Shown here: positions 508 through 16,174 of the stretch, one piece after another
Layout of the letters: the number at the start of each line of letters is the position of its first letter
Numbering within the stretch: the first letter of the stretch is position 1
Origin: a virus
Strand: one strand, 5' to 3'
IMG/VR virus record: IMGVR_UViG_3300033141_003979
Coordinates: 1-64,000 of that record
DNA: 64,000 nt
Position numbers and translations under genes: made by a program
Notes under the pieces: model-generated
Seen by the model: the letters and a program-made list of their open reading frames with translations, nothing else
Database searches by the model: none
What the model was told of the DNA's origin: nothing

Positions 508-1253
508 ATGAGTAAATTCAAAAGGAAAGATGAAGTCCAATTATGTAAGTGCGGTTGTGGCGAAAGAACAAAGAAAAGCCAGAACTATAAAGGCTATAAT
601 AAATATATCAATGGGCATAACAGCATAGGCAAAAAAAGAGTTCTTACTAAAGAACATCGAAAACAAATATCAATTGCACAAAAGAAAAATTCTTTTTTCC
701 ATATTTATAATAAAACAAAAGAACATAGTAAAAAGGTTTCAGAAAGCAACAGAAAAAGGAAACTGTCAAAGGAAACAAAAAAAAGATTTCAGATTCTATA
801 AAATCATTAGGGGCAAATCACCCATTTAGAAGTGAAAAGTATAGAAAAAAACAATCTGAAAGAATGCTAAATGCAGGAGATTTACATCCTTCAAAAAATT
901 CTGAATTCCAAAAAATGCATTCAGAAAGAATGCTAAATGGTGGTGCTGCTCATGCCAATAGTTTTATAAAATCCCTTTCTAAACCCCAAGTTGAATTATT
1001 TGAACTTGTCAAACAAATTTATCCTAATACCATACTTAATCATCCATCATTAAATCGTTCTATTGACATAGCAATCCTTGATCAAATGATTGCCATTGAA
1101 TACGATGGAAGTCATTGGCATCAAAATAAAGAAGCAGATAAAAAGAGACAATTAGAATTAGAAACAATAGGCTGGAAATTTCTGAGATACTGTGATTATG
1201 TTCCATCAATGACTGAGCTGGAAAAGGATTTGAAATTATATGAACAAACTTAA
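508..1253 (+). pseudogene. Frameshifted NUMOD3 / DUF559-Vsr-like homing-type endonuclease
   Basis: Two consecutive frames together make one protein. The first (508-801) starts with a CKCGCGERTKKS zinc-knuckle-like motif and NYKGYNKYINGHN, then lysine-rich NUMOD3-type DNA-binding segments. It runs into a stop just after an A8 tract (777-784). The second frame, open from there to 1253, continues with KKKISDSIKSLG, a typical NUMOD3 phrase, and ends with a PD-(D/E)xK-like nuclease domain (RSIDIAI, IAIEYDGSHWH, GWKFLRYCDYVP). The intact relative at 11323-12219 shares both halves. A single -1 shift in the A run restores the gene. The cause could be a mutation, slippage, or an undercalled homopolymer in the assembly. 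It lies between the ATPase and the sugar genes and overlaps the next start by 14 bases. Confidence 0.8.
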
Positions 1254-1995
1254 AACTGTAGCCATCATTCAAGCTCGCATGAATAGCACACGTCTTCCAG
1301 GCAAGGCCATATTACCATTAGCTAGAAACCCCGCCCTTCAGCAAATGATAGAACGAGTCCAAAAAGCCCAGGGAGTCGATCAGATCATAGTAGCAACCCC
1401 GTATGATGAAAGTAACAAGCCAATTTGGGATTTATGTAACGATATGAAAATTATACCCTGGACTGGCAGTGAGCACGATGTCCTTTATCGGGTACTTACA
1501 GCTGCTTGGGGCAATCGAGCAGACATCATTATTGACCTCACAGGAGATTGCCCGCTTATAGACCACCGGCATATTACTCGGTTAGTCAAAACTGTCAAAA
1601 ATGGCTTCAAGCCATGGAGACGAACTATTGATTATACCTCCAACATCAGTCCACGATCATGGCCAGATGGATTTGATGTACAGGTTTACAGAACAAAAGC
1701 GCTAGAAAAAGTCAGATTAGAATTCAATCCGCCACATCATGTTGGATGGAATATAGCTCAACTTCCAGAGGTTTTCAGGATTGCCAAAAATCTGACTGCC
1801 CCAGCCTTGATGCACTGGCCCGGCCTACGGCTAACCCTAGATACAAAAGAGGACTATGAAGTGCTCCAGAAAGTATTTGAATATTTTGGGGATAAGGATT
1901 TTACTGTAGAGGAGACCATTAGATTGATGGTAGGAAGACCGGAATGGCAAAAAATCAATAGAAAGGTCAGGACAAAGAGCCCGGAGGAGGGGTAA
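1240..1995 (+). CDS. SpsF/NeuA-like cytidylyltransferase (CMP-nonulosonate synthesis)
   Basis: 251 residues, normal length for the SpsF / acylneuraminate cytidylyltransferase family (GT-A nucleotidyltransferase fold). It begins with the family signature AIIQARMNSTRLPGKAI (CTP-binding loop) and has the GSEHDVLYRV and DLTGDCPLID segments that bind the sugar acid and metal. The expected reaction is CTP plus a nonulosonic acid to CMP-sugar and pyrophosphate, supplying a Maf-type transferase. Partners in the window are the NeuB-like synthase (6434), the aminotransferase (4357), the dehydratase (9564) and the Maf genes (12889, 14702). The start overlaps the end of the broken endonuclease and has no strong Shine-Dalgarno site, so that insertion may have replaced its leader. 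The exact sugar cannot be told. Confidence 0.85.
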   Translation: MNKLKTVAIIQARMNSTRLPGKAILPLARNPALQQMIERVQKAQGVDQIIVATPYDESNKPIWDLCNDMKIIPWTGSEHDVLYRVLTAAWGNRADIIIDLTGDCPLIDHRHITRLVKTVKNGFKPWRRTIDYTSNISPRSWPDGFDVQVYRTKALEKVRLEFNPPHHVGWNIAQLPEVFRIAKNLTAPALMHWPGLRLTLDTKEDYEVLQKVFEYFGDKDFTVEETIRLMVGRPEWQKINRKVRTKSPEEG

Positions 1996-2168
1996 TGAAA
2001 AAACTATTAGTGGTGTTTATGGCAGTTTCAATTTTCGCAATAGTATCTTGCAATAGCGGTGGCGGAGGCAGCAGTAGCCCTCCTCCTGATCCTGAGCCAA
2101 TTACTGAAAAACCTTTTATCTGGGGGCAAAGCCATTGGGGTAATGCCGACTGGGAAGTAAAAAAGTAA
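1995..2168 (+). CDS. Small lipoprotein (57 aa)
   Basis: The ATG shares its A with the upstream stop (TAATG), after a GGAGGAGG site. The peptide MKKLLVVFMAVSIFAIVSC is a clean type II signal sequence with lipobox IVSC, giving a lipid-anchored Cys at residue 19. It is followed by a Gly/Ser linker, a Pro-rich stretch and a short tail rich in Trp (FIWGQSHWGNADWEVKK). It is probably a membrane-anchored surface peptide. Phage lipoproteins are often superinfection-exclusion or spanin components, but nothing here identifies the role. Confidence 0.7.
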   Translation: MKKLLVVFMAVSIFAIVSCNSGGGGSSSPPPDPEPITEKPFIWGQSHWGNADWEVKK

Positions 2169-2181
2169 AGGAGGAAAGATC

Positions 2182-2883
2182 ATGAAAAAGATCATCACAA
2201 TTTGCATTTTGTCAGTACTGTTTGCATTCAACACATCATTCGCCGAGGAAGGAGTCACAATTCCTTACAGTTTTGAAAATGGAACCATTGCAGATGCCAA
2301 TGAGGTCAATGCCGTTTTCAATGCTCTAGCCAAATCCATCAACCAAAATCTCATAGTCATGTATGATTATGGGGCACCAGAAAACACTACCAGGATATTT
2401 GCACACTCTGCCTCTCCAACAACCTTGACTTCTGTAGCTACTACCCCTGGGATGGAAACATGGGAATATTCTGATGGATCAAAAATAGAGCATTTAAAGA
2501 AAGATCATGTAGACGGCACTCTTGAAACTGGCCGCAGGATATACAACACTTCCGGAGTCCTTGTACAAGACTTAACATATTTTCCTGCAGTAATAGGAGT
2601 AGATTTAGCTGGATTGAAAGAGGCCGGCAAAATTTGGGGTAATGCCTATGTCGCCAAAAAGCCTGACAGTAGTATGTATGGAACGGAAATCAATATGTAT
2701 TCAATTATAGGCATTGAAGATGTAACGGTACCGGCAGGGACTTTTACCAATTGTACTAAGGTATTCCAAACTACTGGTAATTACAAAAACGTTGCTTGGT
2801 ATGCTGAAGGGGTGGGCATGGTCAAACGAATTGGGGTTGAAGGATTGATAGAATTACAAGAAGTTGAGTTAATTACTCCATAA
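2182..2883 (+). CDS. Exported protein of unknown function with fibre-like N-terminus
   Basis: 233 residues behind an AAAGGAGG site. Residues 1-21 form a Sec signal peptide with cleavage after SFA. The mature start, VTIPYSFENGTIADANEV, followed by NAVFNALA, is the phrase commonly seen at the beginning of phage tail-fibre and appendage proteins (…ANEVNAVFNAL…). The C-terminal half is a beta-rich domain with VTVPAGTFTNC and WYAEGVGMVKR, a pattern found in many uncharacterised bacterial exported proteins. It follows the small lipoprotein, so the two may act together in the periplasm or at the surface. I do not recognise an enzyme. Confidence 0.75.
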   Translation: MKKIITICILSVLFAFNTSFAEEGVTIPYSFENGTIADANEVNAVFNALAKSINQNLIVMYDYGAPENTTRIFAHSASPTTLTSVATTPGMETWEYSDGSKIEHLKKDHVDGTLETGRRIYNTSGVLVQDLTYFPAVIGVDLAGLKEAGKIWGNAYVAKKPDSSMYGTEINMYSIIGIEDVTVPAGTFTNCTKVFQTTGNYKNVAWYAEGVGMVKRIGVEGLIELQEVELITP

Positions 2884-2902
2884 GACAAGAAATAGATTTC
2901 CA

Positions 2903-3055
2903 ATGGCAAGACGTTCCCAACCAAAGCAATCTAAACAGCGATCAAAGACAAAGAAGCATCGCAGCCATGTCACAAAAAATCGTGGGAGCAATAAATGGTT
3001 AGAAGCCCGAATCGAGAGAGTGAAAAAATTATTCAAACCGAAGAAATGGGGGTGA
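2903..3055 (+). CDS. Small, very basic protein (50 aa)
   Basis: Starts MARRSQPKQSKQRSKTKKHR and ends FKPKKWG. About 40% of residues are Lys or Arg and none is Asp, so nucleic-acid binding is possible. The Shine-Dalgarno site is weak, but the frame fills the gap between the exported protein and the oxidoreductase with 19- and 7-base spacers. No family recognised. Confidence 0.45.
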   Translation: MARRSQPKQSKQRSKTKKHRSHVTKNRGSNKWLEARIERVKKLFKPKKWG

Positions 3056-3062
3056 AAATAGC

Positions 3063-4058
3063 ATGAGTAAAATCTATTCAGCAGCAGTAATCGGATGTGG
3101 ATCAATAGGGGCATTGAAACCTGGAGATATTGATTTACCTGGTGGAACGAACATACTAACTCACAGTCATGCACTGTGGAGGCACGAAAGAATAGATTTA
3201 GTTGCAGTGTGTGATATAGATCCAGAAAAGACAACCCAAGCAATGAATAAATGGGAATGCGATGCCAGAGCCAATATTAACAATCTATTTTATGCATTTA
3301 ATCCTGACATCGTAGTTATAGCAACCCCAACTGAAACTCATGCCAAAATCTTGATGGAAGTGATTGGCCACAGCCCAAAACTAATCATTGCAGAAAAGCC
3401 ATTTGGTTTAAATTTTGAACAGGCAGTAAAAATGGTCAATATATATTCAGAAATTCCAATTGCTATAGATTACATCCGCCGCTATGCCAATGGATATAAA
3501 GATATCAAAAAACAAATTGATACCGGTATATTTGGCAAAGCATTAAATTGTCGAGTACTTTATACGAGGGGACTTTTTCATGAGGGATGCCACGGCTTAG
3601 ACTTGATGCATTGGTTTTTTGGCAATATAATTGATCAATATGTTGAAGTTAGAGATATTGGTGTGGGAAAAGAACGATACATAGTAGATTTAAATGATGA
3701 CGATCCAACAGTATACGCAAATTTTGAATTCGTAGGTTGTCCAAATGTTGTATTCCACCCCTGCGATGGCCGTTGTTACGGGATCTTTGAAGTTGACATC
3801 TGCTTTGAAAAAGGCCGATTACGGTTTATTGATAACGGCCTCTATGTTGAGAAGTATCCAATCAATGAAGAAAATGAATGGGGTCACAAATCCCTTGGCT
3901 ATGGCTTGACAAGTGTCATCCGGACAGAAACCGGACTGAATACGGCCTTGTATAATCTGGTTGATAATGCTGTGAATTTCCTTGATGAAAAAGAGCCCTT
4001 GATCTGCACGGCTGAAGATGCTCTTGCAGTTCATAGGATATTAGAAGATATTACTTAA
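3063..4058 (+). CDS. Gfo/Idh/MocA-family NAD(P)-dependent oxidoreductase
   Basis: 331 residues, typical of the family. The N-terminal Rossmann fold has VIGCGSIG for dinucleotide binding, VAVCDIDPEK at the end of the second strand, and the family EKPFG motif (about residue 118) with the catalytic-site Lys. The C-terminal half is the alpha/beta substrate domain, with HEGCHGLDLMHWF containing the conserved His/Asp region. In nonulosonate clusters such dehydrogenases modify the sugar or its nucleotide precursor (compare PtmF-like genes beside flagellin glycosylation genes). Position between SpsF-like and SpsC-like genes supports a sugar role. Substrate unknown. Confidence 0.85.
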   Translation: MSKIYSAAVIGCGSIGALKPGDIDLPGGTNILTHSHALWRHERIDLVAVCDIDPEKTTQAMNKWECDARANINNLFYAFNPDIVVIATPTETHAKILMEVIGHSPKLIIAEKPFGLNFEQAVKMVNIYSEIPIAIDYIRRYANGYKDIKKQIDTGIFGKALNCRVLYTRGLFHEGCHGLDLMHWFFGNIIDQYVEVRDIGVGKERYIVDLNDDDPTVYANFEFVGCPNVVFHPCDGRCYGIFEVDICFEKGRLRFIDNGLYVEKYPINEENEWGHKSLGYGLTSVIRTETGLNTALYNLVDNAVNFLDEKEPLICTAEDALAVHRILEDIT

Positions 4059-4123
4059 TCAGTTTTGAAACTTCAGGAATTTCTTATAATAAAACATAAT
4101 AAAGGAAATTCAAAGAGGGTAAA

Positions 4124-4353
4124 ATGGCAGAAACTCCATCAAAAAGAAGACGAAAAGGTAGAGAAGCATTTGCTCCAAATTGCGATCCTATGGAGTTTCA
4201 ACCTTATAAAAAAGGAACATGGCTCATGATTATCATTTGCAAGATTGGTTAGATGGATGGCAAGAAGCTAAAGAGTTTTTTTTTGAAAAGGAAGAAAAAG
4301 AAAAAGAATCTGAAACAATTTGTAAACATTGTGGTGCAATTATAAAGGATTAA
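4124..4353 (+). pseudogene. Ribosome-modulation-factor-like small protein, split by a frameshift
   Basis: A 42-codon frame (4124-4252) begins MAETPSKRRRKGREAFAPNC and reaches MEFQPYKKG before running out of sense. A second frame (from the A6 run at 4208-4213, stop 4351-4353) continues MAHDYHLQDWLDGWQEAKEF and ends with a CKHCGAIIKD zinc-knuckle half. Joined by a -1 shift in the A6 run, the product has the RMF-like layout: basic N-terminus, G..A, PY, then W-hydrophobic-xGWxEA. RMF dimerises ribosomes in slow growth, and phages carry related small proteins. The join and family are my inference; the break could be a one-base homopolymer error. Confidence 0.5.
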
Positions 4354-4356
4354 TAA

Positions 4357-5661
4357 ATGAGTAAACTAGCCCTATTCGGCGGCCCAAAAGTCAGAGAAGA
4401 TCTTTTCCCATCACAAAATACCTTTGATCATGAAGAGATGCAGGCCGTATGGCGAGTTATGAAAGAAGGTCGCCTATCAGGCTATCGGGGAAGTTGGTGT
4501 CCTGAATTTTTCGGGGGTCCTGAAATTCAGGCTCTCGAAACCGAATGGAAGAAGAAATTCAATGTCAAACATGCCATTGCTGTAAATAGTTGCACAAGTG
4601 GTCTTCATGTTGCCTGTGGAGCAATAGGATTAACTCCAGGAAGTGAAGTCATAGTTACCCCTTATTCAATGACATGTAGTTCTACAGCTCCTATGATATA
4701 CGGCGCTATACCTGTATTTGCTGATATCGACAATTATTGTGCTCTTGATCCAAAATCAATTGAAGAAAGAATAACCCCTAATACAAAAGCTATAATTGTT
4801 GTTAGTTTATTTGGAATGCCTTATAATCCAAAAATAAATAATATAGCAAAAAAACATGGGCTTCTAATAATCGAAGATGCTGCTCAAGCAATTGGGTCAG
4901 GCCTATCTTTGGGATATGATGAAGCAAATGGGGAACATTTCATCCATGCTGGAAATCTTGGTGATATCGGAGTATATTCCTTCAATTTCGGAAAGCATAT
5001 CAATGCCGGAGAAGGTGGAATAGTAGTTACTAACAATGATGATTTGGCTTTTAGAGTTAGGCTATTTGCTAATCATGGCGAGGCAGTAATCAGCGCTATG
5101 AATCCAGAAGAGTCAAGAAATATGATATCTGAAAATATAGTTGGATTTAATATGAGAATGACAGAGTTACAAGCTGCAATTATACGAGTACAATTAAAAA
5201 AGCTTGATGGATTTATTAAAACAAGAAGAGAAAATGTTAATACATTACATAATATATTAGAACAAATACCTGCTATAACTCTGTCCCCGATCAGAGACAA
5301 TTGCACTCATAGTTATTATGTAGATTCGTATTTATGGGATAGCAAACAAGCTAAAAATTTATACAGAGATAAATTTATTGAAGCCGTAAAAGCTGAATTA
5401 ACCCCGCGGGCAGGGAGAGAAGGGGAAGGAGTCCCAATTGGTTGTGGATATATATCTCCGTTATATCTCATGCCATTATTTCAACAACAAAATCCCTTGT
5501 CGCCAAATTATAAAAAAGGTTCATGCCCTAATTGTGAAGATTTATCTTTTAATAAATTATTTTTATCGCTTTTTCATGCACCCCGAAGTACAAAAGATGA
5601 TATGAAAGATGTTGGAAAGGCTTTTCAAAAGGTCTGGGAAAATAGGAAAGAATTAAAATAA
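4357..5661 (+). CDS. DegT/DnrJ/EryC1/StrS-family sugar aminotransferase (SpsC-like)
   Basis: 434 residues, slightly long for this PLP-dependent family. Landmarks in order: VNSCTSGLHVACGAI (cofactor phosphate region), VIVTPYSMTCSS, IIEDAAQAIGS (Asp to the pyridine nitrogen), and SFNFGKHINAGEGG, where the Lys forms the internal aldimine. The expected reaction is transamination of a nucleotide-linked 4-keto sugar using glutamate, as in PseC, LegC or SpsC. It would act directly after the PseB-like dehydratase (9564). A C-terminal segment with SCPNCEDLSF adds extra length. The three-way-junction RNA at 5730 begins 69 bases after its stop. Confidence 0.9.
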   Translation: MSKLALFGGPKVREDLFPSQNTFDHEEMQAVWRVMKEGRLSGYRGSWCPEFFGGPEIQALETEWKKKFNVKHAIAVNSCTSGLHVACGAIGLTPGSEVIVTPYSMTCSSTAPMIYGAIPVFADIDNYCALDPKSIEERITPNTKAIIVVSLFGMPYNPKINNIAKKHGLLIIEDAAQAIGSGLSLGYDEANGEHFIHAGNLGDIGVYSFNFGKHINAGEGGIVVTNNDDLAFRVRLFANHGEAVISAMNPEESRNMISENIVGFNMRMTELQAAIIRVQLKKLDGFIKTRRENVNTLHNILEQIPAITLSPIRDNCTHSYYVDSYLWDSKQAKNLYRDKFIEAVKAELTPRAGREGEGVPIGCGYISPLYLMPLFQQQNPLSPNYKKGSCPNCEDLSFNKLFLSLFHAPRSTKDDMKDVGKAFQKVWENRKELK

Positions 5662-5729
5662 ATCCTTGATTTCTACCTAAAACTACTATATACTTATGCT
5701 AGATAGCAAAACGATAAATTCAAATTTCA

Positions 5730-5800
5730 AGCCTGAGAATCCTCATATTGCGAAGTATGAGGGCGTTATCGTTAACGCTATCTGTTCTCAGGCTTTTTTA
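5730..5800 (+). ncRNA. Three-way-junction RNA leader, copy 1, upstream of HNH gene
   Basis: Outer stem P1 pairs 5730-5739 (AGCCTGAGAA) with 5785-5794 (TTCTCAGGCT), 10 bp. Inside are hairpin P2, 5741-5747 with 5756-5762 (CCTCATA/TATGAGG, 8-nt loop), and hairpin P3, 5763-5768 with 5773-5778 (GCGTTA/TAACGC, 4-nt loop), with a 6-nt linker before P1 closes. A T6 run follows, so it could act as an intrinsic terminator, and a GGAG site for the nuclease gene comes next. The copy at 11237 has the same layout and spacing, with compensatory base changes in all stems. Not a hammerhead: the CUGANGA and GAAA core is absent. Confidence 0.8.
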
Positions 5801-5812
5801 TTTGGAGACGAC

Positions 5813-6421
5813 ATGGGTAAGTATAGAATAGGAAAAACTACTCAAATTACAATTTTTTGTTCACAATGTAATAAGCCTAAAAAAATATATCCCTTTTTAC
5901 AAAATCAAAAACATCACTTTTGTAATAAAAAATGTCATATAAAATGGCAAACCAAAAATATGAAAGGTAAATATAGTCCTGCTTGGAAAGGCGGAAATGT
6001 TATAGCTTTTTGTTCATGGTGCAATAAACCAAAAGAAATAAATCTCTATAAAAAATACAATCAAAAATACCATTTCTGTAGTCAAGAATGTAAAAAAATA
6101 TGGATGTCAGGTGAAAATGCCCCTAGTTGGCGCGGTGGGATATCTACTACTCCATATTGTTTTATATGGTCAGATTGGGAATATAAACAATCTATCAAAG
6201 ACAGAGATAATAATGAATGTCAAAACAAAGTTGATTGTCGCAAAAATTCTAATCACCTTCCTTTATGCCTTCATCATATAGATCACAATAAACAAGAATG
6301 TAATCCTTGGGATATTATAACTGTTTGTCATAGTTGCAATGGTAGAGCAAATTTCAACATAGAATACTGGAAAGAATTTTATCAAAATATAATGACTGAA
6401 AAATATGGATATAAATATTAA
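5813..6421 (+). CDS. HNH homing-type endonuclease with repeated zinc knuckles
   Basis: I place the start at ATG 5813, after TTTGGAGACGAC, because the longer frame from 5696 runs through the structured RNA leader. 202 residues. Two zinc-binding repeats come first (FCSQCNKPKK…HFCNKKCH and FCSWCNKPKE…HFCSQECK), then SPAWKGG/APSWRGG phrases, and finally an HNH nuclease domain LCLHHIDHNKQECNPWDII with VCHSCNGRAN, containing the His-His, Asn and Cys-pair zinc scaffold. Such genes are free-standing selfish elements that nick or cut near their own locus. It sits between the aminotransferase and the NeuB-like gene and is unrelated in nuclease domain to the other endonucleases here. Confidence 0.88.
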   Translation: MGKYRIGKTTQITIFCSQCNKPKKIYPFLQNQKHHFCNKKCHIKWQTKNMKGKYSPAWKGGNVIAFCSWCNKPKEINLYKKYNQKYHFCSQECKKIWMSGENAPSWRGGISTTPYCFIWSDWEYKQSIKDRDNNECQNKVDCRKNSNHLPLCLHHIDHNKQECNPWDIITVCHSCNGRANFNIEYWKEFYQNIMTEKYGYKY

Positions 6422-6433
6422 AAAGGGAATAAT

Positions 6434-7300
6434 ATGACTATCAAATGGTGTGCTGAAATAGGAAGTAATCATAACCAAAATTTAGATAGAACAATTAAAT
6501 TGATAAAAGAGGCTAAAAAAATAGGCTGTGATTTTGTTAAGTTCCAACTTTTCAAGGGAGAGAATTTATATCACTCATCATTCGGTGCCAAGATCAATCA
6601 AATGCGAAAGTGGGAATTACCAAGCCATTTTCTTCCTGAGATAAGCCGGTGCTGCAAGGTCAATGACATCCGACTTGGCATCTCTGTTTTTGATCTTGAA
6701 GCCGTAGAAATTGCCAGCAAATATGCAGATTGCCTCAAGATCGGTAGTTATGAATTGCTTTGGCATGATTTAATCAAAACAGTTGTCAAAACAGGTAAGC
6801 CATGGATGATATCATCAGGTATGGCCGATTGGGGACAAATATCAAAGGCAATATCTCTTGTAAGACCTTGCAAGTTTGCTCAGGTGCCGATGGCAATCCT
6901 TCATTGCAACTCAAACTATCCAGCGCGCCCACAGAACTGCTGCCTTAATCAAATCTCTCTTTTGAATAAAATCTTTCCAGCAATGAAAATCGGCTGGTCA
7001 GATCACACAACTGAATCCGGAGTAATATATAAAGCCGTAGCTCTTGGGGCAAAATTTATTGAATTCCATTTTGACCTAGAAGATGGCCTTGGTTATGAAT
7101 CATCAATAGGCCATTGTTGGAAACCAGATAAGATCGGAGAAGTAATTCACAATGTAAGGATCGGAGAGATTGAAGAAGAAAGCACAGATACAGGCGAAAG
7201 CGAAGCGGCCAAGTGGAGGACAGACCCAACTGATGGGCTGAGACCATTGAAAAAATTTAGGGAAGAGTTGTTGAAAGATGAGGCAATGGAGGAGATATGA
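6434..7300 (+). CDS. NeuB/SpsE-family nonulosonic acid synthase
   Basis: 288 residues of the NeuB TIM-barrel family: AEIGSNHNQNLDRTIKLI at the N-terminus, DFVKFQLFKG (catalytic-site region), GISVFDLEAVE, KIGSYEL, MISSGMA, LHCNSNYPA and GWSDHT, the last being the usual family signature. It condenses phosphoenolpyruvate with a 6-carbon aldose (ManNAc-type, or its di-N-acetyl analogues) to a 9-carbon acid. The C-terminal antifreeze-like SAF domain of classical NeuB is absent; the protein ends with a short Glu-rich tail. The ATGA overlap with 7297 suggests translational coupling. This is the diagnostic enzyme of the sugar cluster. Confidence 0.9.
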   Translation: MTIKWCAEIGSNHNQNLDRTIKLIKEAKKIGCDFVKFQLFKGENLYHSSFGAKINQMRKWELPSHFLPEISRCCKVNDIRLGISVFDLEAVEIASKYADCLKIGSYELLWHDLIKTVVKTGKPWMISSGMADWGQISKAISLVRPCKFAQVPMAILHCNSNYPARPQNCCLNQISLLNKIFPAMKIGWSDHTTESGVIYKAVALGAKFIEFHFDLEDGLGYESSIGHCWKPDKIGEVIHNVRIGEIEEESTDTGESEAAKWRTDPTDGLRPLKKFREELLKDEAMEEI

Positions 7301-7509
7301 AAGGTATACTGATAGGATGCGTAATCGGTGCGATAATGTGGGCTGTTATAATTATGTGTGCTACGAGCCTACAACCTGCCACCATTGCCTTGCCGTATCG
7401 TCAGGAATGGCCTCGGAAACTGATGAGCGTTGACAGTTTGGGCATTAGCTACTGGCAAGCAAGACCGTTGGGGTTGATAATGATGATTGAAAAGGGATGT
7501 CCGAGATGA
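7297..7509 (+). CDS. Small membrane protein (70 aa)
   Basis: ATGA overlap with the NeuB-like gene. Residues 4-25 (ILIGCVIGAIMWAVIIMC) form one transmembrane segment; the rest is a short, soluble, basic-ended tail (YRQEWPRKL…EKGCPR). A Cys near the end of the helix might be lipidated, but the context is not a clear lipobox. Function unknown. Confidence 0.6.
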   Translation: MKGILIGCVIGAIMWAVIIMCATSLQPATIALPYRQEWPRKLMSVDSLGISYWQARPLGLIMMIEKGCPR

Positions 7510-7730: not shown

Positions 7731-7731
7731 C

Positions 7732-8859: not shown

Positions 8860-9563
8860 TGAGTGAATATCGAATATACATGATTGATGGTGATCATCTT
8901 TTAGGGTGGAAAGGAAACAAGTGCAAGAACGTCCTCGAACTTGTGAAGATGTCTATTGAGTTATTGAAAGAAGAAGGATGGAAAATTGAATATAAGGAGC
9001 CAAAGACAGAGAAAGGAGAGAAATATATTACTGATGATGGTGAATGTATGTTTGACGTAGAAGTCGACAGAGTGCCTTGCAATTCTTTTCTTCATGGCAT
9101 CCGCCTTACCCTGACCTATCCGGAGCCGGAGCCAGTAGTGGATAAGTGTACAGCAAATATCGGCACTGATTGTGATATCTGTGATCGTGATAAACCATAT
9201 TGTGCTCACTACAAGATAAAAGAAAGACTTAACAAATCAGTACCCGACCCTCAAGGAGATGAAACCGAAGAAGCAGCAACCAATTATATCATACCTGGGC
9301 ATGTACCCAACCTCGACGAGGCGGAGGTGGGTCAAGACGTTCAAAGGAACAAACTACCACGGTGTCCGACTTGTGGGCAACCTGAAGCTGTAGAAATAGA
9401 CGGAAATGGCGAAATACGCATTATTCGTGACGAGCCGGAGGTGGATGAGTGGGAGAAGCTTAAAGAACTTTGTTCTGACAGTTTAGGAGTTTCTGAAATG
9501 AAGTATTTGCTTCGGGGTCTTGTGAAAGAAATTGACAAACTCAGATGTCCGAAGGGAGGATGA
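8859..9563 (+). CDS. Hypothetical protein with Cys clusters
   Basis: 234 residues, TAATG-coupled to the propeller gene. The N-terminal 85 residues look like a small alpha/beta domain. A Cys/His cluster follows (CTANIGTDCDICDRDKPYCAHY, about residues 91-112), then a CPTCG knuckle (about 170) and an acidic linker, and a helical end (LKELCSDSLGVSEMKYLLRG). Two zinc-binding sites are likely. No known family recognised; the position between sialidase-fold and dehydratase genes does not define a role. Confidence 0.65.
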   Translation: MSEYRIYMIDGDHLLGWKGNKCKNVLELVKMSIELLKEEGWKIEYKEPKTEKGEKYITDDGECMFDVEVDRVPCNSFLHGIRLTLTYPEPEPVVDKCTANIGTDCDICDRDKPYCAHYKIKERLNKSVPDPQGDETEEAATNYIIPGHVPNLDEAEVGQDVQRNKLPRCPTCGQPEAVEIDGNGEIRIIRDEPEVDEWEKLKELCSDSLGVSEMKYLLRGLVKEIDKLRCPKGG

Positions 9564-10553
9564 ATGAACTTCGAGTCTAAACTATTCTGGCAAGGCCGAG
9601 AAGTATTGATTTCCGGTGGCACTGGCAGTCTTGGGAAGGCAATTACAAACTTGCTTATCCAAGAAGAATATCCAATCAAAGGATTGCGCATCTTCAGCCG
9701 TGACGAACTGAAGCAATATCAAATGAGGCAAAGCCTCAAAGCCCCATTCCCAGTGGCTTTCCTGATTGGAGATATCCGCAATCGTAAACGGTTGACCAGG
9801 GCTATGGAAGGGGTCGATACATGCATTCATGCCGCAGCATTAAAACAAGTAGACACATCTGAAAGCAATCCGTGGGAATTTATTGAAACCAACATTATAG
9901 GCACACAAAATGTTCTCGATGCCTGCCTGGATTGCAAGGTTGCCAGAGCAATGTTGATAAGCACTGACAAGGCCTCTTATCCCATTAATCTATACGGCAT
10001 GACCAAAGGATGTGCTGAACGGATCTTTGTGCATGGCAATATTTATTCCGGTGGTAGAATTCCAATATTTGGTGCTTGTAGATATGGGAATGTTCTCGGT
10101 TCACGAGGGTCTGTTATCCAAGTATTTCAGGAACAAGCCCTCAATGGGCAAATAATAACCATCACCGACAGTCAAATGACTAGATTCTGGATTACTATGA
10201 AAGATGTAGCCCGCTTCATTCTTCAATCAATCGAAATCATGCAAGCAGGAGAAATATATATCCCAAAAATGCCGAGCATGAAGATCGTAGATCTAGCAAA
10301 AACTATCATTGCAGAAACAGGCACAATGGGAAAATCGAAAATTGAAGAAATTGGTGTCAGACCAGGAGAGAAATTGCATGAGACATTGGTAACCAAAGAA
10401 GAAAGCTACAAATGTGATGTCCAGGATACCTATTATTTAATCCATCCAGTCAGAGAGTGCCCACCGGAGACGGTCAGGGCTTTATTCTCATATACAAGTG
10501 ATAACAATGATTGGTGGTTAACGAAGAAAGAGTTATGGGAAATGATAAAATGA
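9564..10553 (+). CDS. PseB/FlaA1-like UDP-sugar 4,6-dehydratase (SDR family)
   Basis: 329 residues, typical for the short-chain dehydrogenase-like PseB/FlaA1/CapD group. It has the nucleotide motif ISGGTGSLGKAI, FSRDELKQYQM (family signature after strand 2), AAALKQVDTSESNPWEFIETN, the catalytic STDKASYPINLYGMTK (Thr-Asp-Lys, Tyr-x3-Lys), and GVRPGEKLHETL near the end. It should convert UDP-GlcNAc to a 4-keto-6-deoxy sugar, the first step toward pseudaminic- or bacillosamine/legionaminic-type sugars. The product would feed the aminotransferase at 4357. Good Shine-Dalgarno (GAAGGGAGG). Confidence 0.9.
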   Translation: MNFESKLFWQGREVLISGGTGSLGKAITNLLIQEEYPIKGLRIFSRDELKQYQMRQSLKAPFPVAFLIGDIRNRKRLTRAMEGVDTCIHAAALKQVDTSESNPWEFIETNIIGTQNVLDACLDCKVARAMLISTDKASYPINLYGMTKGCAERIFVHGNIYSGGRIPIFGACRYGNVLGSRGSVIQVFQEQALNGQIITITDSQMTRFWITMKDVARFILQSIEIMQAGEIYIPKMPSMKIVDLAKTIIAETGTMGKSKIEEIGVRPGEKLHETLVTKEESYKCDVQDTYYLIHPVRECPPETVRALFSYTSDNNDWWLTKKELWEMIK

Positions 10554-11176
10554 CATCAGCAATGTATGAAACTAAACGGCTTATTCTTGAACCATTTAGC
10601 AGGAAACATCTTGAAGGGCCTTATCGTTCATGGTTCCATGATCCTGAAGTAACAAAATACAATTCCCATGGCCTCTTCCCATATACGATTGCCAAGATGG
10701 AAGCTTTTCTTGCATCAATTGAGGCAGGTAATATGATTGTAATGGCAGTAATGGCAAAATCAAAAAAATCAACTATAGAAATTCAAAATTCAAAAATTTC
10801 TTCTGATTGTGACCAAGGATTCAATTACATTTTTTCTGAAACAAACTTAATTCACATCGGCAACATCTCCCTTCAATCTATCAACTGGATTAACCGCAGT
10901 GCCGAGTACGCAGTAATTGTGGGAGATAAATCCTACTGGGGCAAAGGCTATGCCACAGAGGCAAGCCTGCTGTTGTTTGAGCACGGCTTTAAACGATTAA
11001 ATTTACATAAAATTTGGACTGGAACAGCAAAGACAAATATTGGAATGCAGCATGTAGCAAAAAAATTAGGAATGCAGTGGGAAGGAATGTTTCGAGAAGC
11101 AATGTTTTTAAACGGTCAATATGTAGATATTCTTACATATGGGATCTTAAAAAAAGAATTTAATCAAATTTCTTGA
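10550..11176 (+). CDS. GNAT N-acetyltransferase (RimJ/PseH/SpsD-like)
   Basis: I choose ATG 10550 for its ATGA overlap with the dehydratase stop; 208 residues from there. The N-terminal ETKRLILEPFSRKHL and the acetyl-CoA loop SYWGKGYATEASLLLFEHGF followed by NLHKIWTGTAKTNIGMQHVAKKLG are the standard RimJ/RimL-type signature. In nonulosonate clusters this enzyme (PseH, LegH, SpsD) N-acetylates the 4-amino group of the UDP-sugar. An insertion around residues 60-90, rich in Ser, Lys and Ile, separates strands of the fold and is unusual. Confidence 0.85.
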   Translation: MTSAMYETKRLILEPFSRKHLEGPYRSWFHDPEVTKYNSHGLFPYTIAKMEAFLASIEAGNMIVMAVMAKSKKSTIEIQNSKISSDCDQGFNYIFSETNLIHIGNISLQSINWINRSAEYAVIVGDKSYWGKGYATEASLLLFEHGFKRLNLHKIWTGTAKTNIGMQHVAKKLGMQWEGMFREAMFLNGQYVDILTYGILKKEFNQIS

Positions 11177-11236
11177 CTTTTCCAAAAAAAAATAATATAA
11201 TTATGATGAATAGTATAGCAACGATCCAAAATTTAG

Positions 11237-11310
11237 AGCCTGAGAGTTTTCATGTCGTGAGGCATGGAAGCGTTGTTGCTAACGCTATTCACTCTCGGGC
11301 TTTTCTTTTT
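11237..11310 (+). ncRNA. Three-way-junction RNA leader, copy 2, upstream of NUMOD3 endonuclease
   Basis: Same architecture as copy 1. P1 pairs 11237-11246 (AGCCTGAGAG) with 11292-11301 (CTCTCGGGCT); P2 pairs 11248-11254 with 11263-11269 (TTTCATG/CATGGAA); P3 pairs 11270-11275 with 11280-11285 (GCGTTG/TAACGC). Loops are 8 and 4 nt and the linker is 6 nt, identical to copy 1. Against copy 1, three P2 pairs and one P1 pair change on both sides (for example C-G to U-A, A-U to G-C), and further pairs shift through G-U. A pyrimidine run (TTTTCTTTTT) and GGGGAG follow. Confidence 0.8.
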
Positions 11311-11322
11311 GGGGAGATTGGC

Positions 11323-12219
11323 ATGAGATTCAAAAGACGGAATCTACCACTATGTGAATGTGGATGTGGATATGAAGTTAAATGGTGTCAGACAAGAAAA
11401 CAATGGAATCCATTTATTAATGGACATCAAAATAGAGGCAAAAATAATTCACAATATAGCAAGACTGGCAAATTGAGTGCTGTTTATGGCAAAGACAAAT
11501 ATGCAGAAGAAAAAGCAAAATCTAAACCACTATGTAAATGTGGATGTAAAAATAAGACTAAATGGTGCAAATCAAGAAAGAAATTTAATGAATATATCAA
11601 TGGTCATTACATTTGTATTAATAATCCAATGAATAATCCAAAATCAGTAGCGAAATTAACTGGAAAAAATAGTTGTAATTATGGGAAAACAGGCAAAAAT
11701 CACCCTGCTTATGGATCTCAAAAATCTGAAGCAAAAAGAAAGAAAACATCAAAAACATTAATAGGAAATCAGAATAGCAAAGGGACTAGAAGGAATAAAG
11801 AATTTTGTGAAAACCAAAGAAAAATAATGTTAAATGGAGGGGCAAAACATGCCAATTCGTTTAAGACACCAGAAAGTTATAAAGCCCATACAGAATATAT
11901 GCTTAATGGTGGGGCTGCATATTTAAATTCACTTATTAAATCGCCCTCTAAACCACAAGTAGAATTGTTTGAACTAATCAAACAACTATTTCCAAATGCA
12001 ATTCTTAACCATCCATCATTGAATCGTTCTATTGACATAGCAATTCCTGACAAAATGATTGCAATTGAATATGATGGATCATACTGGCATCAAGATCAAA
12101 AAGCAGATGATAAAAGGCAGAAAGAATTAGAGTCACTTGGATGGAAGTTTCTGAGATACTGTGATTATGTCCCTACTATTGATGAATTAGAAAGGGATTT
12201 AAAAGGAGCAGAAAGATGA
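11323..12219 (+). CDS. NUMOD3 / DUF559-Vsr-like homing-type endonuclease (intact)
   Basis: Start placed at ATG 11323 after GGGGAGATTGGC; the frame is open further upstream but only through the structured RNA. 298 residues. It has two CxCGC knuckle repeats (LCECGCGYEVKWC and LCKCGCKNKTKWC), each followed by an INGH phrase, then repeated lysine-rich NUMOD3-like segments (NYGKTGKNHPAYGSQK). The C-terminal nuclease domain (SIDIAI, MIAIEYDGSYWHQ, LGWKFLRYCDYVP) resembles DUF559/Vsr PD-(D/E)xK folds. It is a close paralogue of the broken gene at 508-1253. It separates the acetyltransferase from small genes leading to Maf. Confidence 0.85.
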   Translation: MRFKRRNLPLCECGCGYEVKWCQTRKQWNPFINGHQNRGKNNSQYSKTGKLSAVYGKDKYAEEKAKSKPLCKCGCKNKTKWCKSRKKFNEYINGHYICINNPMNNPKSVAKLTGKNSCNYGKTGKNHPAYGSQKSEAKRKKTSKTLIGNQNSKGTRRNKEFCENQRKIMLNGGAKHANSFKTPESYKAHTEYMLNGGAAYLNSLIKSPSKPQVELFELIKQLFPNAILNHPSLNRSIDIAIPDKMIAIEYDGSYWHQDQKADDKRQKELESLGWKFLRYCDYVPTIDELERDLKGAER

Positions 12220-12449
12220 AAAAGAGCAAAGCAGAAAAATTCTCTCCTTCAGATATAAAACAAGCAACTGATATGACTATAATTAACAAGATCCAATTCA
12301 TTCGTACCAAAAACAACCAAGCTTGGATGGATATCCTGCGATGTGCTATGTCGAATGCCCCAGAAGAAACAAAGGTGATAATGGCCGCCATTGCAAAAAA
12401 CGATGCAGAAATTACAGAACTGACAAAGGAATTAGCAGATGCCTTGTGA
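12216..12449 (+). CDS. Small helical hypothetical protein (77 aa)
   Basis: ATGA overlap with the endonuclease gene. The sequence (MKKSKAEKFSPSDIKQATDM and onward) is predicted to be mostly helical, with an amphipathic C-terminus (NDAEITELTKELADAL). No motif or family recognised; translational coupling on both sides supports that it is expressed. Confidence 0.55.
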   Translation: MKKSKAEKFSPSDIKQATDMTIINKIQFIRTKNNQAWMDILRCAMSNAPEETKVIMAAIAKNDAEITELTKELADAL

Positions 12450-12636
12450 ACACAAAAATACGTACTATGAAGATTGGCCTAACGGCAGATGCATTGAAAT
12501 CTGCCTTGATTACAGTATGTCTCGTCATCACTGGGAACAGGGGCAATCTGAGTGGGTAATAGTTAAAGATATTGCAGGAGCAAAAGAGCGAGTGCAGGAG
12601 TCTATCAATGAAATGAGAGACGTAGTATGTTTTTAG
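12439..12636 (+). CDS. Small hypothetical protein (65 aa)
   Basis: Overlaps the end of the previous frame by 11 bases. MPCEHKNTYYEDWPNGRCIE has a C-x2-H and later Cys pair that may bind metal. The C-terminal half (VIVKDIAGAKERVQESINEM) is helical. The overlapping arrangement and lack of a competing frame make it plausible, but no family is recognised. Confidence 0.5.
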   Translation: MPCEHKNTYYEDWPNGRCIEICLDYSMSRHHWEQGQSEWVIVKDIAGAKERVQESINEMRDVVCF

Positions 12637-12643
12637 AAAGATA

Positions 12644-12814
12644 ATGGCCAAACTAGTCAAAGGGTATAAGTGCCCAAAGTGTGGAGGGCAGATTCGAGAA
12701 GATGAAAAAATGCAGAATAGGTATTTTTGTACCAATGCCGGAGATGCGTATGGTAAAGGTGTATGTATATTTGAAACTTATCGTAGAAGCGATTTAGTGA
12801 AGGAGGAGGAATGA
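12644..12814 (+). CDS. Small zinc-ribbon protein (56 aa)
   Basis: MAKLVKGYKCPKCGGQIRED, then NRYFCTN and GVCIFETYRR: a CPxCGG knuckle followed by two further Cys residues, the layout of a single zinc ribbon. A strong AAGGAGGAGGA precedes the following ATG, inside its own 3' end. Role unknown; such ribbons occur in small phage regulators or nucleic-acid binders. Confidence 0.6.
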   Translation: MAKLVKGYKCPKCGGQIREDEKMQNRYFCTNAGDAYGKGVCIFETYRRSDLVKEEE

Positions 12815-12917
12815 AACTTAAACCTGTTTATAAGATTTACATCTCTATAAATATGTTCATGAATTAGCAGAGTTATTGAGAGGAAAAAATGAAAAAGAAG
12901 AACAAAACGCTGGCTAA
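12811..12917 (+). pseudogene. Very short gene, apparently frameshifted
   Basis: ATG 12811 follows a strong AAGGAGGAGGA but gives only 18 residues (MKLKPVYKIYISINMFMN). A -1 shift near 12835 would continue as DLHLYKYVHELAELLRGKN, a plausible amphipathic helix, to a stop at 12915-12917, overlapping the next gene. The strong ribosome site argues that something was translated here. This reconstruction is speculative. Confidence 0.3.
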
Positions 12918-14271
12918 AAATCTCAATGCATTCAAAAAAATCAATCCCCCCATGCATGGTTGGCTGATGGAACAGAAAGGGGTTAATTGGATCGATGAGA
13001 TTCGCAGCAAAAATGGGGACAAGAATTTCCTCATCCAAGAAGGCAGCAAAATCCAGCCAGCCTACAATATGAACAACCCAACAAAGCAAGCCAACAAAGG
13101 CACCAAGAACATGAGGTTGCACAAGGAAAACATTTCAATAATTGTTGGCTTTGGCCTTGGTTATCTTGCTAAAGCTATCTTAGACAAGATGGAAAAAGGA
13201 CACCATGTCCTTGTAATTGAGCCAGTAGGAGATGTAATAAAATTAGCCCTCGGCAATATTGATTTTTCCAAGGCAATCTCTAATGGAGACTTATTGATAA
13301 TTGCCCCAGGCAAACAGGAAGTTATTTTTGCTCTCCATTTTATGAGCAATCAATTCGTGATCTCAGACTGGTTCATGACGATAGACAAATATACAAACCT
13401 CAAGCCAGATGTCTACAAAGAGTTAACCGGACTTACTGCCGATATCATTAACCAGGTCATGTGCAATACAGGCACAATAGCTGGTGCCGCAGGCGGCAAG
13501 ATCGCTGACAATGACATTGCCTGCCTGCCCTATGTCATAAGGCACAGGGGTGTTGCAGAATTGAAGGACCTATACAAAGACAAACCTGCTATTCTTGTAA
13601 GTACAGGCCCATCATTGGCCAAAAACATCCACCATCTAATCGACTTAGAGGACAAGACAGTGATCATTGCAGTCGGTCAAGCATTGAGACCTCTGCTTGC
13701 CTATGGAATCCGTCCGGACTTCATCTGCACCGTAGATTTTGGAGAAGTCAATTACTGCCATTTCAAAGGGCTCATGGACAGCAACATTCCCTTAGTAACA
13801 ATCAATAGGGCTTATGCCCCATTGCTCAAGGCTTGGCAGGGACCAAAATTCATCGCAGCAACACCAGTGCCCGGCTTTGAGCACATGGCCACTGGCATAT
13901 TATCAGATAAAGGATTCCTTGAGGCCGGAGGCAGTGTGGCACATTTGGTATTCGGGTTGGCTCAACGACTTGGCTGCAATCCAATAGTCTTCGTGGGCCA
14001 GGATCTTGCTCTCGGAGAGACTTCTCATATCCCTCTGGCCGATGCCGCAGGAGAGGTGAAGATTGATGAAAGCGGGCAAATCCATTGGGAAGTGAAGGAT
14101 CACAGATGTCATCTTCATAAGAAAGATCAAACTTATTTAATGGGGCCTATTGCACAAGTACCAGGCTATTTCGGGAAGCCAGTTATGACGAATATGGGAT
14201 TAGCCAGCTTCTTATCGGTATTTGAGGCAATGGTTGAAGGGCATTTGAGGAGGAATGATGAAACGAATTAA
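12889..14271 (+). CDS. Maf-type (DUF115) glycosyltransferase, main domain; C-terminal part split off
   Basis: 460 residues. Family features in order: IIVGFGLGYLAKAIL (about 85), VLVIEPVGD, the long DUF115/MAF core with KPAILVSTGPSLAKNIHHLI (about 233), AVGQALRPLLAYGIRPDFICTV, and GGSVAHLVFGLAQRLGCNPI followed by VFVGQDLAL (about 345). Maf proteins (GT-A-like variant) transfer CMP-activated nonulosonic acids to Ser/Thr of flagellin and related surface proteins in the cytoplasm. The protein stops after FLSVFEAMVEGHLRR, just before the NATEGGA.I.GT segment normally near the C-terminus; that segment begins the gene at 14702. The substrate here is unknown; phage fibre Ser tracts are my proposal. 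Confidence 0.85.
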   Translation: MKKKNKTLAKNLNAFKKINPPMHGWLMEQKGVNWIDEIRSKNGDKNFLIQEGSKIQPAYNMNNPTKQANKGTKNMRLHKENISIIVGFGLGYLAKAILDKMEKGHHVLVIEPVGDVIKLALGNIDFSKAISNGDLLIIAPGKQEVIFALHFMSNQFVISDWFMTIDKYTNLKPDVYKELTGLTADIINQVMCNTGTIAGAAGGKIADNDIACLPYVIRHRGVAELKDLYKDKPAILVSTGPSLAKNIHHLIDLEDKTVIIAVGQALRPLLAYGIRPDFICTVDFGEVNYCHFKGLMDSNIPLVTINRAYAPLLKAWQGPKFIAATPVPGFEHMATGILSDKGFLEAGGSVAHLVFGLAQRLGCNPIVFVGQDLALGETSHIPLADAAGEVKIDESGQIHWEVKDHRCHLHKKDQTYLMGPIAQVPGYFGKPVMTNMGLASFLSVFEAMVEGHLRRNDETN

Positions 14272-14620
14272 CTGTATCTATTATTTATATGAAAAATGTC
14301 TTCATCCAAAACAAAAGAAAAGACTTTGGTTTTTCCATCCAACATGTTATGTACCTTGCTGCACTCTTCAGAAGCCGTATGCAAAACCACCTAGATGCCC
14401 TCCCCCACCACCTCCCGCCCCGAAAATCCCAATGTGTAAGATAGTAACTCATCTAATTTTGCCCAATGAACCCTACCAAATCTTCGTCTGCCCTAAATGT
14501 GATGGAGAAAAAGAAGATAAAGACGCCGTCCCAAGTCCGATGGCAGACGGAGGAAATTACTATGGGCCTTGCCGCCTATGTGATGGGAAGGGATATATAA
14601 AGGAGAAGGTGGAGAAATGA
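14255..14620 (+). CDS. Cys-rich protein with DnaJ-type zinc knuckles (121 aa)
   Basis: Starts at ATG 14255 (or 14258) right after GAGGAGGA, overlapping the Maf-like stop. The N-terminal part is rich in Cys and aromatic residues, a Pro tract (PPRCPPPPPPAPKIP) follows, then CPKCDGE and CRLCDGKGYI, a pair resembling the CxxCxGxG knuckles of DnaJ-type zinc fingers. It occupies the position where the Maf C-terminal segment would be expected, so it looks inserted. Function unknown. Confidence 0.6.
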   Translation: MMKRINCIYYLYEKCLHPKQKKRLWFFHPTCYVPCCTLQKPYAKPPRCPPPPPPAPKIPMCKIVTHLILPNEPYQIFVCPKCDGEKEDKDAVPSPMADGGNYYGPCRLCDGKGYIKEKVEK

Positions 14621-14700
14621 AATCTAGCTTAATAGGTCTTGTTATTAGTATGCTTATGGGATTAGCAATTATTGTATTTAGCTGGTTAAAGGGAGAATAA
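14617..14700 (+). CDS. Single-helix membrane peptide (27 aa)
   Basis: MKSSLIGLVISMLMGLAIIV followed by FSWLKGE is one transmembrane helix with charged ends. ATGA overlap with the previous stop and a GGTGGAGAA site. The next gene starts one base after its stop. It is the second member of the material separating the two Maf parts. Confidence 0.5.
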   Translation: MKSSLIGLVISMLMGLAIIVFSWLKGE

Positions 14701-14701
14701 T

Positions 14702-16174
14702 ATGCAGCGAGTAATTATTAACGCAACGGAAGGTGGGGCTCATATCAAAGGCACAGACCGGATGCCTCTCAAGAAAGTAATTAACAAATACTGCCAAAAA
14801 CCCATCAACAAATCGAAGGTCAAAAAGCTTCTCTCTTTGGCCAAAAATGGAGACGAACTGATTACCAAAGTTATCCCTCTGCTTGAAGATGATATCAAAG
14901 TACTAGATGAAATCTCTACCAGCAGCCGCAGAGGCCTTGCCGCTTGCCGAGGGCTCAAAACCTTAATGAGTAGATCCAATTACAGAGGTCTGCTTTCCAG
15001 AAAGAAGGAAAAGCAACTTGATTGGATGCTCAATAAAGCCAGGCAAAAGGGAGGGAAGGACTTCATAAAAACAAACCAGATATTCTATGCAAAGGCAATT
15101 GCTTCGGTCAAAAAATCTAAGCTCAAGAATGTGTTCATCTTATCTAATAAGAACTTCAAACACTCGGCTACTGCCCAGTTAGCAGCAACCAAAAACCCAC
15201 TAGTTAACGTGGCAATCTACGGTGCCAGCCGAGAGATCCAGGGTCGGCGGTTGAAAGTAAAAGAGACATTAGCACATTTCCTACGAAACAACAAAGATGC
15301 ATTGACCCGCGTAGAGCGGAATGAGCTAATTCTCAAGACGGCAAGGCGAGCATCAGAATCATTGAGGAAATCATACAAAGAAACATTAGAGTTGTTGAAG
15401 AAATATGACGGGACAAAAGACAGTAGTCTGCTGGTATCAAACGAAGTTGAGCCAATAAATCTCGACGACTCAGAAGAGTATTTTGCCGCAGGCAATTGGG
15501 CACATCCGTTGTTAGATGCAAGTAAAATTATTAAAAAAGATCCAACTGATAGAAAGGCTAATGAAATTTTAGCAAAAACATTATCAATGAGGGCACAAGC
15601 TAAAAATAAAGCCCGAAATAATGAAGTCAAAAATGCAGACAGAGAAACCCGATTGCTCCAATACAACAAACTACTCAAAGAGAGTAAGGAAATAGGCCGG
15701 AAAGAAAACAAGTTTGACGAGGCACTAACGATGCTGAAGAAGGCAGCCAAATTGATGCCGGAAGAGGAAGAGGCCCGCTGGGGAGTTGCTACTGCCTTGC
15801 ATCATGCTGGGAAGATTAAAGAGTCCTTGAAAGAATATGAAAAGTTAATCAAGGATTTTCAAGACAATTATATGTACCTCCTTGAATACGGGCAGGTGCT
15901 CCTGCGCAATAAGAAAACTCAGGAAGGCCTCAAAATAATCGGTGAGGTAATGGCAAAGACCGATGAATTTGATTACTTCCTAGCTCGACTAGGCGAGATA
16001 TATGAGCACTCTGATATGATGGAAGAAGCCTTGACAGCATACAATTCATATCTAGAAAAATTCCCATTCAACTATCAGATTTGGGTCCGAAAAGGAAATT
16101 GTCTAACTGCACTAGGTAGAAACACAATGGCAGATTGGGCATTCCGAAAGGCAAGAGAAATCAGACCGGATTAA
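14702..16174 (+). CDS. Detached Maf C-terminal segment fused to a TPR protein
   Basis: 490 residues. Residues 2-32 (QRVIINATEGGAHIKGTDRM, then PLKKVINKYC) match the C-terminal phrase of Maf/DUF115 glycosyltransferases. The next ~240 residues are helical, Lys/Arg-rich and unrecognised. From about 280 to the end there are tetratricopeptide-like repeats (for example EALTMLKKAAKLMPEEEEAR, KIKESLKEYEKLIKDF, MEEALTAYNSYLEKFPFNYQ, TMADWAFRKAREIRPD). TPR domains often dock glycosyltransferases onto protein substrates. It may reconstitute Maf activity with the 12889 product. It ends at 16174, one base before the stop codon of the convergent minus-strand gene. Confidence 0.7.
   Translation: MQRVIINATEGGAHIKGTDRMPLKKVINKYCQKPINKSKVKKLLSLAKNGDELITKVIPLLEDDIKVLDEISTSSRRGLAACRGLKTLMSRSNYRGLLSRKKEKQLDWMLNKARQKGGKDFIKTNQIFYAKAIASVKKSKLKNVFILSNKNFKHSATAQLAATKNPLVNVAIYGASREIQGRRLKVKETLAHFLRNNKDALTRVERNELILKTARRASESLRKSYKETLELLKKYDGTKDSSLLVSNEVEPINLDDSEEYFAAGNWAHPLLDASKIIKKDPTDRKANEILAKTLSMRAQAKNKARNNEVKNADRETRLLQYNKLLKESKEIGRKENKFDEALTMLKKAAKLMPEEEEARWGVATALHHAGKIKESLKEYEKLIKDFQDNYMYLLEYGQVLLRNKKTQEGLKIIGEVMAKTDEFDYFLARLGEIYEHSDMMEEALTAYNSYLEKFPFNYQIWVRKGNCLTALGRNTMADWAFRKAREIRPD

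Follow-up and report, generated by a model that had tools for sequence, protein, structure and literature searches.

The stretch analyzed here (hereafter the window) comprises bases 1-64,000 of the 109,770-base IMG/VR record IMGVR_UViG_3300033141_003979, and between positions 1240 and 16174 its plus strand carries a cassette of sugar-pathway genes that ends in a Maf-type protein glycosyltransferase. A sequence-only reading of the window had named seven enzymes here as a phage-borne nonulosonic acid pathway. Domain searches placed each of the seven where it had been seen, with signature motifs intact, and genes of the PseB, DegT, GNAT, NeuB and cytidine monophosphate (CMP)-transferase families were identified, as expected of a nonulosonate-type pathway; the GNAT start previously read at 10550 is an in-frame ATG within a longer open reading frame (ORF). 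The cassette comprises the following genes:

1240-1995, plus strand: CMP-sugar transferase, SpsF/KdsB-like (PF02348, CTP_transf_3, 77 bits; motif QARxxSxRLPxK).
3063-4058, plus strand: Gfo/Idh/MocA oxidoreductase (PF01408, 53 bits; GxGxIG and EKP motifs).
4357-5661, plus strand: DegT/PseC-like sugar aminotransferase (PF01041, 258 bits; pyridoxal phosphate-lysine motif GKHxxxGEGG).
6434-7300, plus strand: NeuB-family synthase of a SAF-less subfamily (PF03102, 163 bits).
9564-10553, plus strand: PseB/FlaA1-like 4,6-dehydratase (Polysacc_synt_2) of uridine diphosphate-N-acetylglucosamine (UDP-GlcNAc) (TIGR03589, 362 bits).
10511-11176, plus strand: GNAT N-acetyltransferase, predicted to have a PseH-like role (PF13302, 91 bits; GKGYA motif).
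12216-12449, plus strand: conserved small cassette protein of 77 residues (motif RxxNNxxWM, recognized by alignment; no Pfam family).
12889-14271, plus strand: Maf-type glycosyltransferase core (DUF115/MptE-like; PF01973, 148 bits).
14702-16174, plus strand: C-terminal part of Maf, an INATEGGA motif followed by TPR repeats (matches to TPR families only).

The last two genes had been read as halves of one transferase, and this was borne out, as the core and the TPR part form a single ORF of 851-973 residues in 10 relatives (L006, L007, L010, L016, L017, L022, L024, L038, L039, and L041) and the ORF at 14702 opens with INATEGGAHIKG, a Maf-like stretch (INATEGGAxIxG), with the TPR repeats at its end. 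The window, L005, L009, L011, and L012 have the gene interrupted at one common site, with different intervening DNA. The AlphaFold2 model of the 460-residue core (predicted local distance difference test [pLDDT] 84, predicted template modeling score 0.58) had as its best solved structure the Magnetospirillum Maf 5MU5 (E 2e-17, 510 aligned columns), in agreement with the assignment of a Maf-type transferase to the end of the cassette; it matched only ~195 columns of a DUF115 relative, the MptE-type HPPK of M. jannaschii. Scores against two curated models were below their cut-offs (NF050051 PseD, 94 bits against 670; PF20157, 22.8 against 23.5). Within the core, the family keeps the GPSL, TVDFG, and GQDLA stretches. 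The TPR region is probably the acceptor-binding domain. Across relatives it is about 29-57% identical, vs. 45-67% for the Maf core, and such greater divergence is what differing acceptors would predict. Among 50,697 deposited phages, neither Maf nor its TPR part had any match, and NeuB matched three, at 25-31% identity.

The remaining enzymes resemble well-characterized families at some distance. TIGR03589 is by a wide margin the top family for the PseB-like protein, yet its score falls short of the cut-off of 408 bits; the protein aligns with FlaA1 (2GN4) at 268 bits, including the active-site STDK and YxxTK. The top NCBIfam model for the DegT protein is PseC, at 185 bits where the cut-off is 424, and its nearest solved chain is 5K8B, an 8-amino-3,8-dideoxy-manno-octulosonate transaminase, whereas the GNAT protein reaches 29 of the 93 bits set for PseH. 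Since the enzymes score under the NCBIfam equivalog cut-offs, the precise sugar is not assignable to pseudaminic or legionaminic acid; the earlier reading is supported as far as a nonulosonate-type pathway ending in a Maf-type transferase. The NeuB protein is, by its sequence, a member of the phosphoenolpyruvate-condensing synthase family, having intact KFQ, KIGSYE, SDHT, and EFH motifs that are conserved within the family and Protein Data Bank matches to SpsE (1VLI, the closest solved chain) and SiaC. It consists of the catalytic barrel only, ending ahead of the SAF domain, which is also absent from NeuB of the related phages and of the nearest bacterial relative examined (L058). The protein encoded at 1240-1995, for which the nearest solved chain is the cytidylyltransferase 6OEW (97 bits), would activate the nonulosonate.

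The record's final 34 bases are identical to its initial 34 and, because of this overlap, it likely represents a complete, circularly assembled genome; IMG/VR classes it as linear. The open frames at the end of the contig and at the beginning of the window are continuous, and the gene so joined is a single ORF in relatives (about 202-219 residues). The phage is a myovirus, as its opposite (minus) strand carries genes for the portal, major head protein, protease, sheath (phrog_165), tape measure, and baseplate hub and other baseplate proteins, which also confirms the tail cluster reported beside the cassette. In the remainder of the record, examined by eye, were genes for a terminase (for which matches were found), DNA polymerase III, helicase, primase, and SbcC/D-like proteins. 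No tRNA was found in the record and, as had been noted for the window, no flagellin, in that there was no match to Flagellin_N in the whole genome.

Relatives were gathered by scanning viral contigs with alignments of Maf and NeuB; a scan with a single NeuB sequence gave no matches, whereas the alignment-based scan did find them. The order CMP-sugar transferase, Gfo/Idh, DegT, NeuB, PseB, GNAT, Maf-TPR recurs in 13 distinct further contigs (L006, L007, L010, L011, L012, L016, L017, L020, L022, L024, L038, L039, and L041; L008 gave the same alignment values as L007 and was counted with it), and this retention of order, at enzyme identities of about 33-67%, argues that the gene set is not a product of chance. 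The Gfo/Idh gene is in every full cassette. Partial copies in L005, L009, L037, and L042 are cut by contig ends, and L023 is divergent. The cassette genes are under purifying selection, with ratios of nonsynonymous to synonymous substitution rates of 0.06-0.27 in the two closest pairs (L010/L011 and L009/L012), wherever synonymous divergence could be estimated. L042 (MEWG01000024.1), a contig in a metagenome-assembled genome (MAG) of the candidate division WWE3, is a genome fragment from this phage lineage, and its placement there probably reflects a binning error or an unexpected host.

An independent query, the unrelated baseplate gene, retrieved 18 loci at ≥60% identity. All 11 with at least 4.2 kb of sequence downstream carry Maf and/or TPR convergent to the tail (L069 and L070 are apparently the same sequence, leaving 10 distinct loci; those with ≤3.4 kb downstream are uninformative). 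Because Maf/TPR lies beside the tail in every locus that reaches far enough, the cassette is a core feature of this phage lineage and not a random moron. Lifestyle and genome size differ across the lineage while the cassette stays; the genome of L022 (L043 is the same contig) spans 57.7 kb, carries a 99-base repeat at its ends, encodes a tyrosine recombinase adjacent to the cassette, and was binned with a flagellin-bearing Desulforudis MAG.

In the window, and in those closer relatives for which both flanks are available, the cassette has sbcC/sbcD-like genes (split in the window) on one side and convergent tail-fibre genes on the other; the latter are, in the window:

16175-16519, minus strand: tail assembly chaperone (APC; PF16778, 59 bits), convergent to the cassette.
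16529-17758, minus strand: tail-fibre gene, convergent to the cassette; a candidate acceptor region.

The possibility that the plus-strand genes are host chromosome flanking a prophage was rejected, as the cassette is flanked left and right by phage genes, in relatives as well as in the window, and the two ends of the contig overlap; the cassette is phage-borne, as first read. The gene for the SbcC-like protein is split in two, with an SbcD-like gene in the middle (L004 9409-10683; record 109557-109770 joined to window 1-480), an arrangement also present in L006, L007, L010, and L012. On the other flank, the N-terminal 65 residues of the fibre recur between the baseplate gene and Maf-TPR in relatives. 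This module was found in the window, L006, L009, L010, L011, and L078, sometimes twice per phage and with differing C-terminal parts, and matched a single deposited phage, Paraburkholderia phage IPK.

Two further proteins of the cassette region are not among the seven enzymes and went unlisted in the initial reading. The window encodes the small protein (~65 residues, range 62-89; R..NN..WM and a D are invariant), as do 12 of the 13 full cassettes, at varying locations inside the cassette; it was undetected in L012, and in L042 it is joined to GNAT as one protein. Its match among 398 genomes of the phylum of the Desulforudis MAG was on the phage contig only, and there was no match in nine genomes of the phylum of HOT.CON.50, the bacterial MAG considered below. 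A search with a single member of the family matched only its own locus and a sister locus. The second protein occurs in only part of the lineage, namely in the window, L007, and L009-L012:

7732-8859, plus strand: sialidase-fold (BNR/Asp-box) protein (PF13088, 48 bits; profile matches to Protein Data Bank sialidases).

Structural matches by Foldseek to a model of this protein, with a pLDDT of only 56, are likewise to sialidases and include the P. aeruginosa pseudaminidase 2W38.

That the cassette is a working nonulosonate-Maf system we consider probable. Under the mechanism we propose, the PseB-like enzyme would dehydrate and epimerize UDP-GlcNAc, DegT would aminate and GNAT then N-acetylate the sugar, and the UDP would be removed by an enzyme that is either not encoded by the phage or was not recognized here. 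NeuB would join the freed sugar with phosphoenolpyruvate to form the nonulosonic acid, which the CMP-transferase would activate, with Gfo/Idh modifying the sugar at some step. Maf would then transfer the nonulosonate to serine or threonine residues of a protein selected via its C-terminal TPR domain. We propose that the acceptor is a protein of the phage tail, the neighboring fibre being the first candidate, such that virions would carry nonulosonate. A virion tail protein seems the likeliest acceptor, with host flagellin as its main rival, because the phage has no flagellin, one tail lineage keeps the cassette as a core feature, and the TPR part diverges faster than the Maf core; this core status of the cassette, together with its location next to the tail-fibre genes, likewise favors the virion over a host surface. 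The statement as a whole, that the phage encodes cytoplasmic protein O-glycosylation of the flagellin type with its own virion as target, we rate as about an even chance. Two very large proteins encoded on the minus strand of the window (39166-43998 and 48139-53319; 1610 and 1726 residues), with weak FN3/phosphatase-N-like and DUF5060/beta-propeller matches, are possible tail or surface proteins and glycan acceptors.

Several observations weigh against this proposal. The UDP-hydrolase (PseG/SpsG/NeuC) reported missing from the window is not found beyond it either, as profiles for PseG (TIGR03590) and Epimerase_2 (PF02350) had no match at E≤10 across the 109,770-base record, so that a hydrolase elsewhere in the genome was rejected. 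The PseG profile also had no match in 16 records from relatives, a set that includes fragments, and no other hydrolase candidate was noticed among the ORFs scanned. With the enzyme missing from the genome and unmatched in these records, the pathway is not self-sufficient as such pathways are known. The Desulforudis MAG carries its own LegC/NeuC/NeuB genes, and it is possible that a host of this type supplies the hydrolysis step, MAG binning being weak evidence of host. The NeuB protein without a SAF domain and the enzyme scores under the equivalog cut-offs count on the same side. No acceptor was identified, and the Mafs described in the literature consulted modify flagellin, so their recognition of acceptors may not reach fibres. 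The nearest chromosomal Maf-TPR that we found, in the MAG HOT.CON.50, lies directly after flagellin and fliS, which keeps flagellin in play.

That locus also leads to the foremost of the alternatives, in which the target of the cassette, in infection or lysogeny, is host flagellin or some other protein of the host surface; its modification could, for instance, block superinfecting phages that bind the flagellum, or alter motility. The Maf family as well as its nearest chromosomal relative are linked to flagellin, L022 with its recombinase and its flagellin-bearing bin would suit such a role, and Campylobacter phages have been described as targeting flagellar pseudaminic acid (Pse) glycans (PMC4690887, PMC7099621). 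However, no integrase was found in the 110-kb genome of the window phage and a lytic infection would likely leave little time to replace flagella already assembled, while the cassette is tied as a core feature to one tail lineage and always sits beside tail genes, at any genome size. We therefore regard a host flagellar target as possible but rather unlikely.

An alternative we consider improbable is that the nonulosonate goes onto a glycan (lipopolysaccharide, capsule, or other surface polysaccharide), with Maf acting as a donor-specific transferase of altered acceptor. Other, unrelated viral contigs bear NeuB without Maf (L025-L036), so phage NeuB can serve other ends, and a second group of glycan genes, including family 2 glycosyltransferases (GT2), lies inside the tail region of the window (31193-37356, minus strand):

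31193, minus strand: GT2.
33312, minus strand: sulfotransferase.
34611, minus strand: radical SAM protein.
35320, minus strand: GT2 and methyltransferase fusion.

The cassette lacks genes for polysaccharide assembly, however, and the nearest structural match of its transferase is a protein glycosyltransferase, with a TPR domain attached; the GT2 gene at 35320 was not found in 16 relative records, in a search run without a positive control. That the cassette is decaying or horizontally passing cargo without function for the phage, as its inserted mobile endonuclease-like ORFs, split Maf gene, and missing hydrolase might suggest, is very improbable and already largely refuted by purifying selection, intact motifs, gene order kept over deep divergence, presence in every testable relative, and a Maf split that is clean and recurrent with both halves intact.

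The inserted ORFs, which from their sequences appear to be mobile insertions outside the sugar pathway, are:

5696-6421, plus strand: HNH-type homing-endonuclease-like ORF (from reading of the sequence and a leader common to three similar ORFs; no Pfam match).
11173-12219, plus strand: endonuclease-like ORF with an MTES_1575/DUF559 domain (PF18741/PF04480).

Another endonuclease-like ORF, at 864, precedes the cassette; none of the three had been listed in the initial reading. Two 300-nucleotide copies of an MTES_1575/DUF559 endonuclease-like domain, 77% alike, lie before the cassette (918-1217) and within it (11887-12186). A conserved leader of ~130 bases is present on four homing-endonuclease-like ORFs (window 5600-5830 and 11120-11310; L004 1720-1940 and 10630-10840), and comprises a sigma-70-like promoter (TTGAnT, TATAnT) and an attenuator-like inverted repeat, GCCTGAGA/TCTCAGGC, with a T-run after it. 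As an Rfam search identified no RNA element, the inserted ORFs are not assignable to known introns.

Comparison with known systems places the phage set closest to flagellin glycosylation, a parallel that the initial reading had drawn. On the HOT.CON.50 contig, Maf-TPR after flagellin and fliS is accompanied by PseB and PseC that exceed their cut-offs, a NeuB that, like that of the phages, has no SAF domain, and SpsF-like and PseG-like enzymes; because of this neighborhood, the phage system by analogy probably works like flagellin glycosylation, from which it probably descends. The bacterial Maf flagellin loci of Campylobacter, Aeromonas, Clostridium, and Magnetospirillum share with it PseB, PseC, GNAT, NeuB, the CMP-transferase, and a Maf of the 5MU5 fold, whereas the phage set is without flagellin and PseG, has Gfo/Idh and the small protein, and converges on tail-fibre genes. 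C. botulinum Maf, as described in PMC11339370, uses CMP-sugars, modifies serine/threonine, and accepts shortened or grafted pieces of flagellin. In Caulobacter, the TPR domain of FlmG binds the acceptor flagellin (PMC7591256); both FlmG and the phage protein have TPR attached to a nonulosonate protein transferase, but FlmG has a GT-B-like domain with N-terminal TPR and the phage protein a Maf core with C-terminal TPR. The Bacillus subtilis sps operon, also proposed as a parallel, proved a looser analog than the flagellin loci. It shares relatives of SpsE, SpsF, the aminotransferase, and the acetyltransferase, whereas in the phage SpsG is absent, PseB, Gfo/Idh, and Maf are present, and gene order and context (myovirus rather than spore coat) differ.

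Among phages, glycans on capsid and tail proteins are an established outcome in mycobacteriophages, in which the targets are C-termini of capsid and tail tube subunits (Freeman 2023, via PMC12619734), but as cited in PMC12619734 that system has no pointer to a nonulosonate pathway or Maf. Cyanophages and other phages with surface-sugar clusters likewise have sugar-nucleotide genes, but the PseB-like matches in Synechococcus phages are at ~27% identity and annotated as epimerases, and no deposited phage has a Maf match. The phages described in the literature consulted bind flagella bearing Pse, O-acetylate nonulosonates of capsules, or glycosylate virions, and in the portion of it available under open licence we found no report of a phage nonulosonate-Maf cassette; an earlier report elsewhere is possible.

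Returning to the virion as target, we tentatively put forward a fuller picture, one we hold with less than even confidence, in which a core nonulosonate pathway without a canonical UDP-hydrolase works with a phage-specific small partner and a Maf-TPR that was retargeted from flagellin to the phage's own tail fibre, producing virions with sialic-acid-like glycosylation and, in some members, a matching sialidase-fold protein. If the cassette acts on virions, Maf-type nonulosonate protein glycosylation would extend from flagella to viruses, and a phage lineage would depend on a sialic-acid-like coat, with likely effects on adsorption, recognition, or the stability of the particle. Action on flagellin would instead represent a phage-encoded takeover of flagellar glycosylation. 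The absence of a canonical UDP-hydrolase poses a clear biochemical question, and with either target the system would be a compact one in which to study the poorly understood choice of acceptor by Maf.

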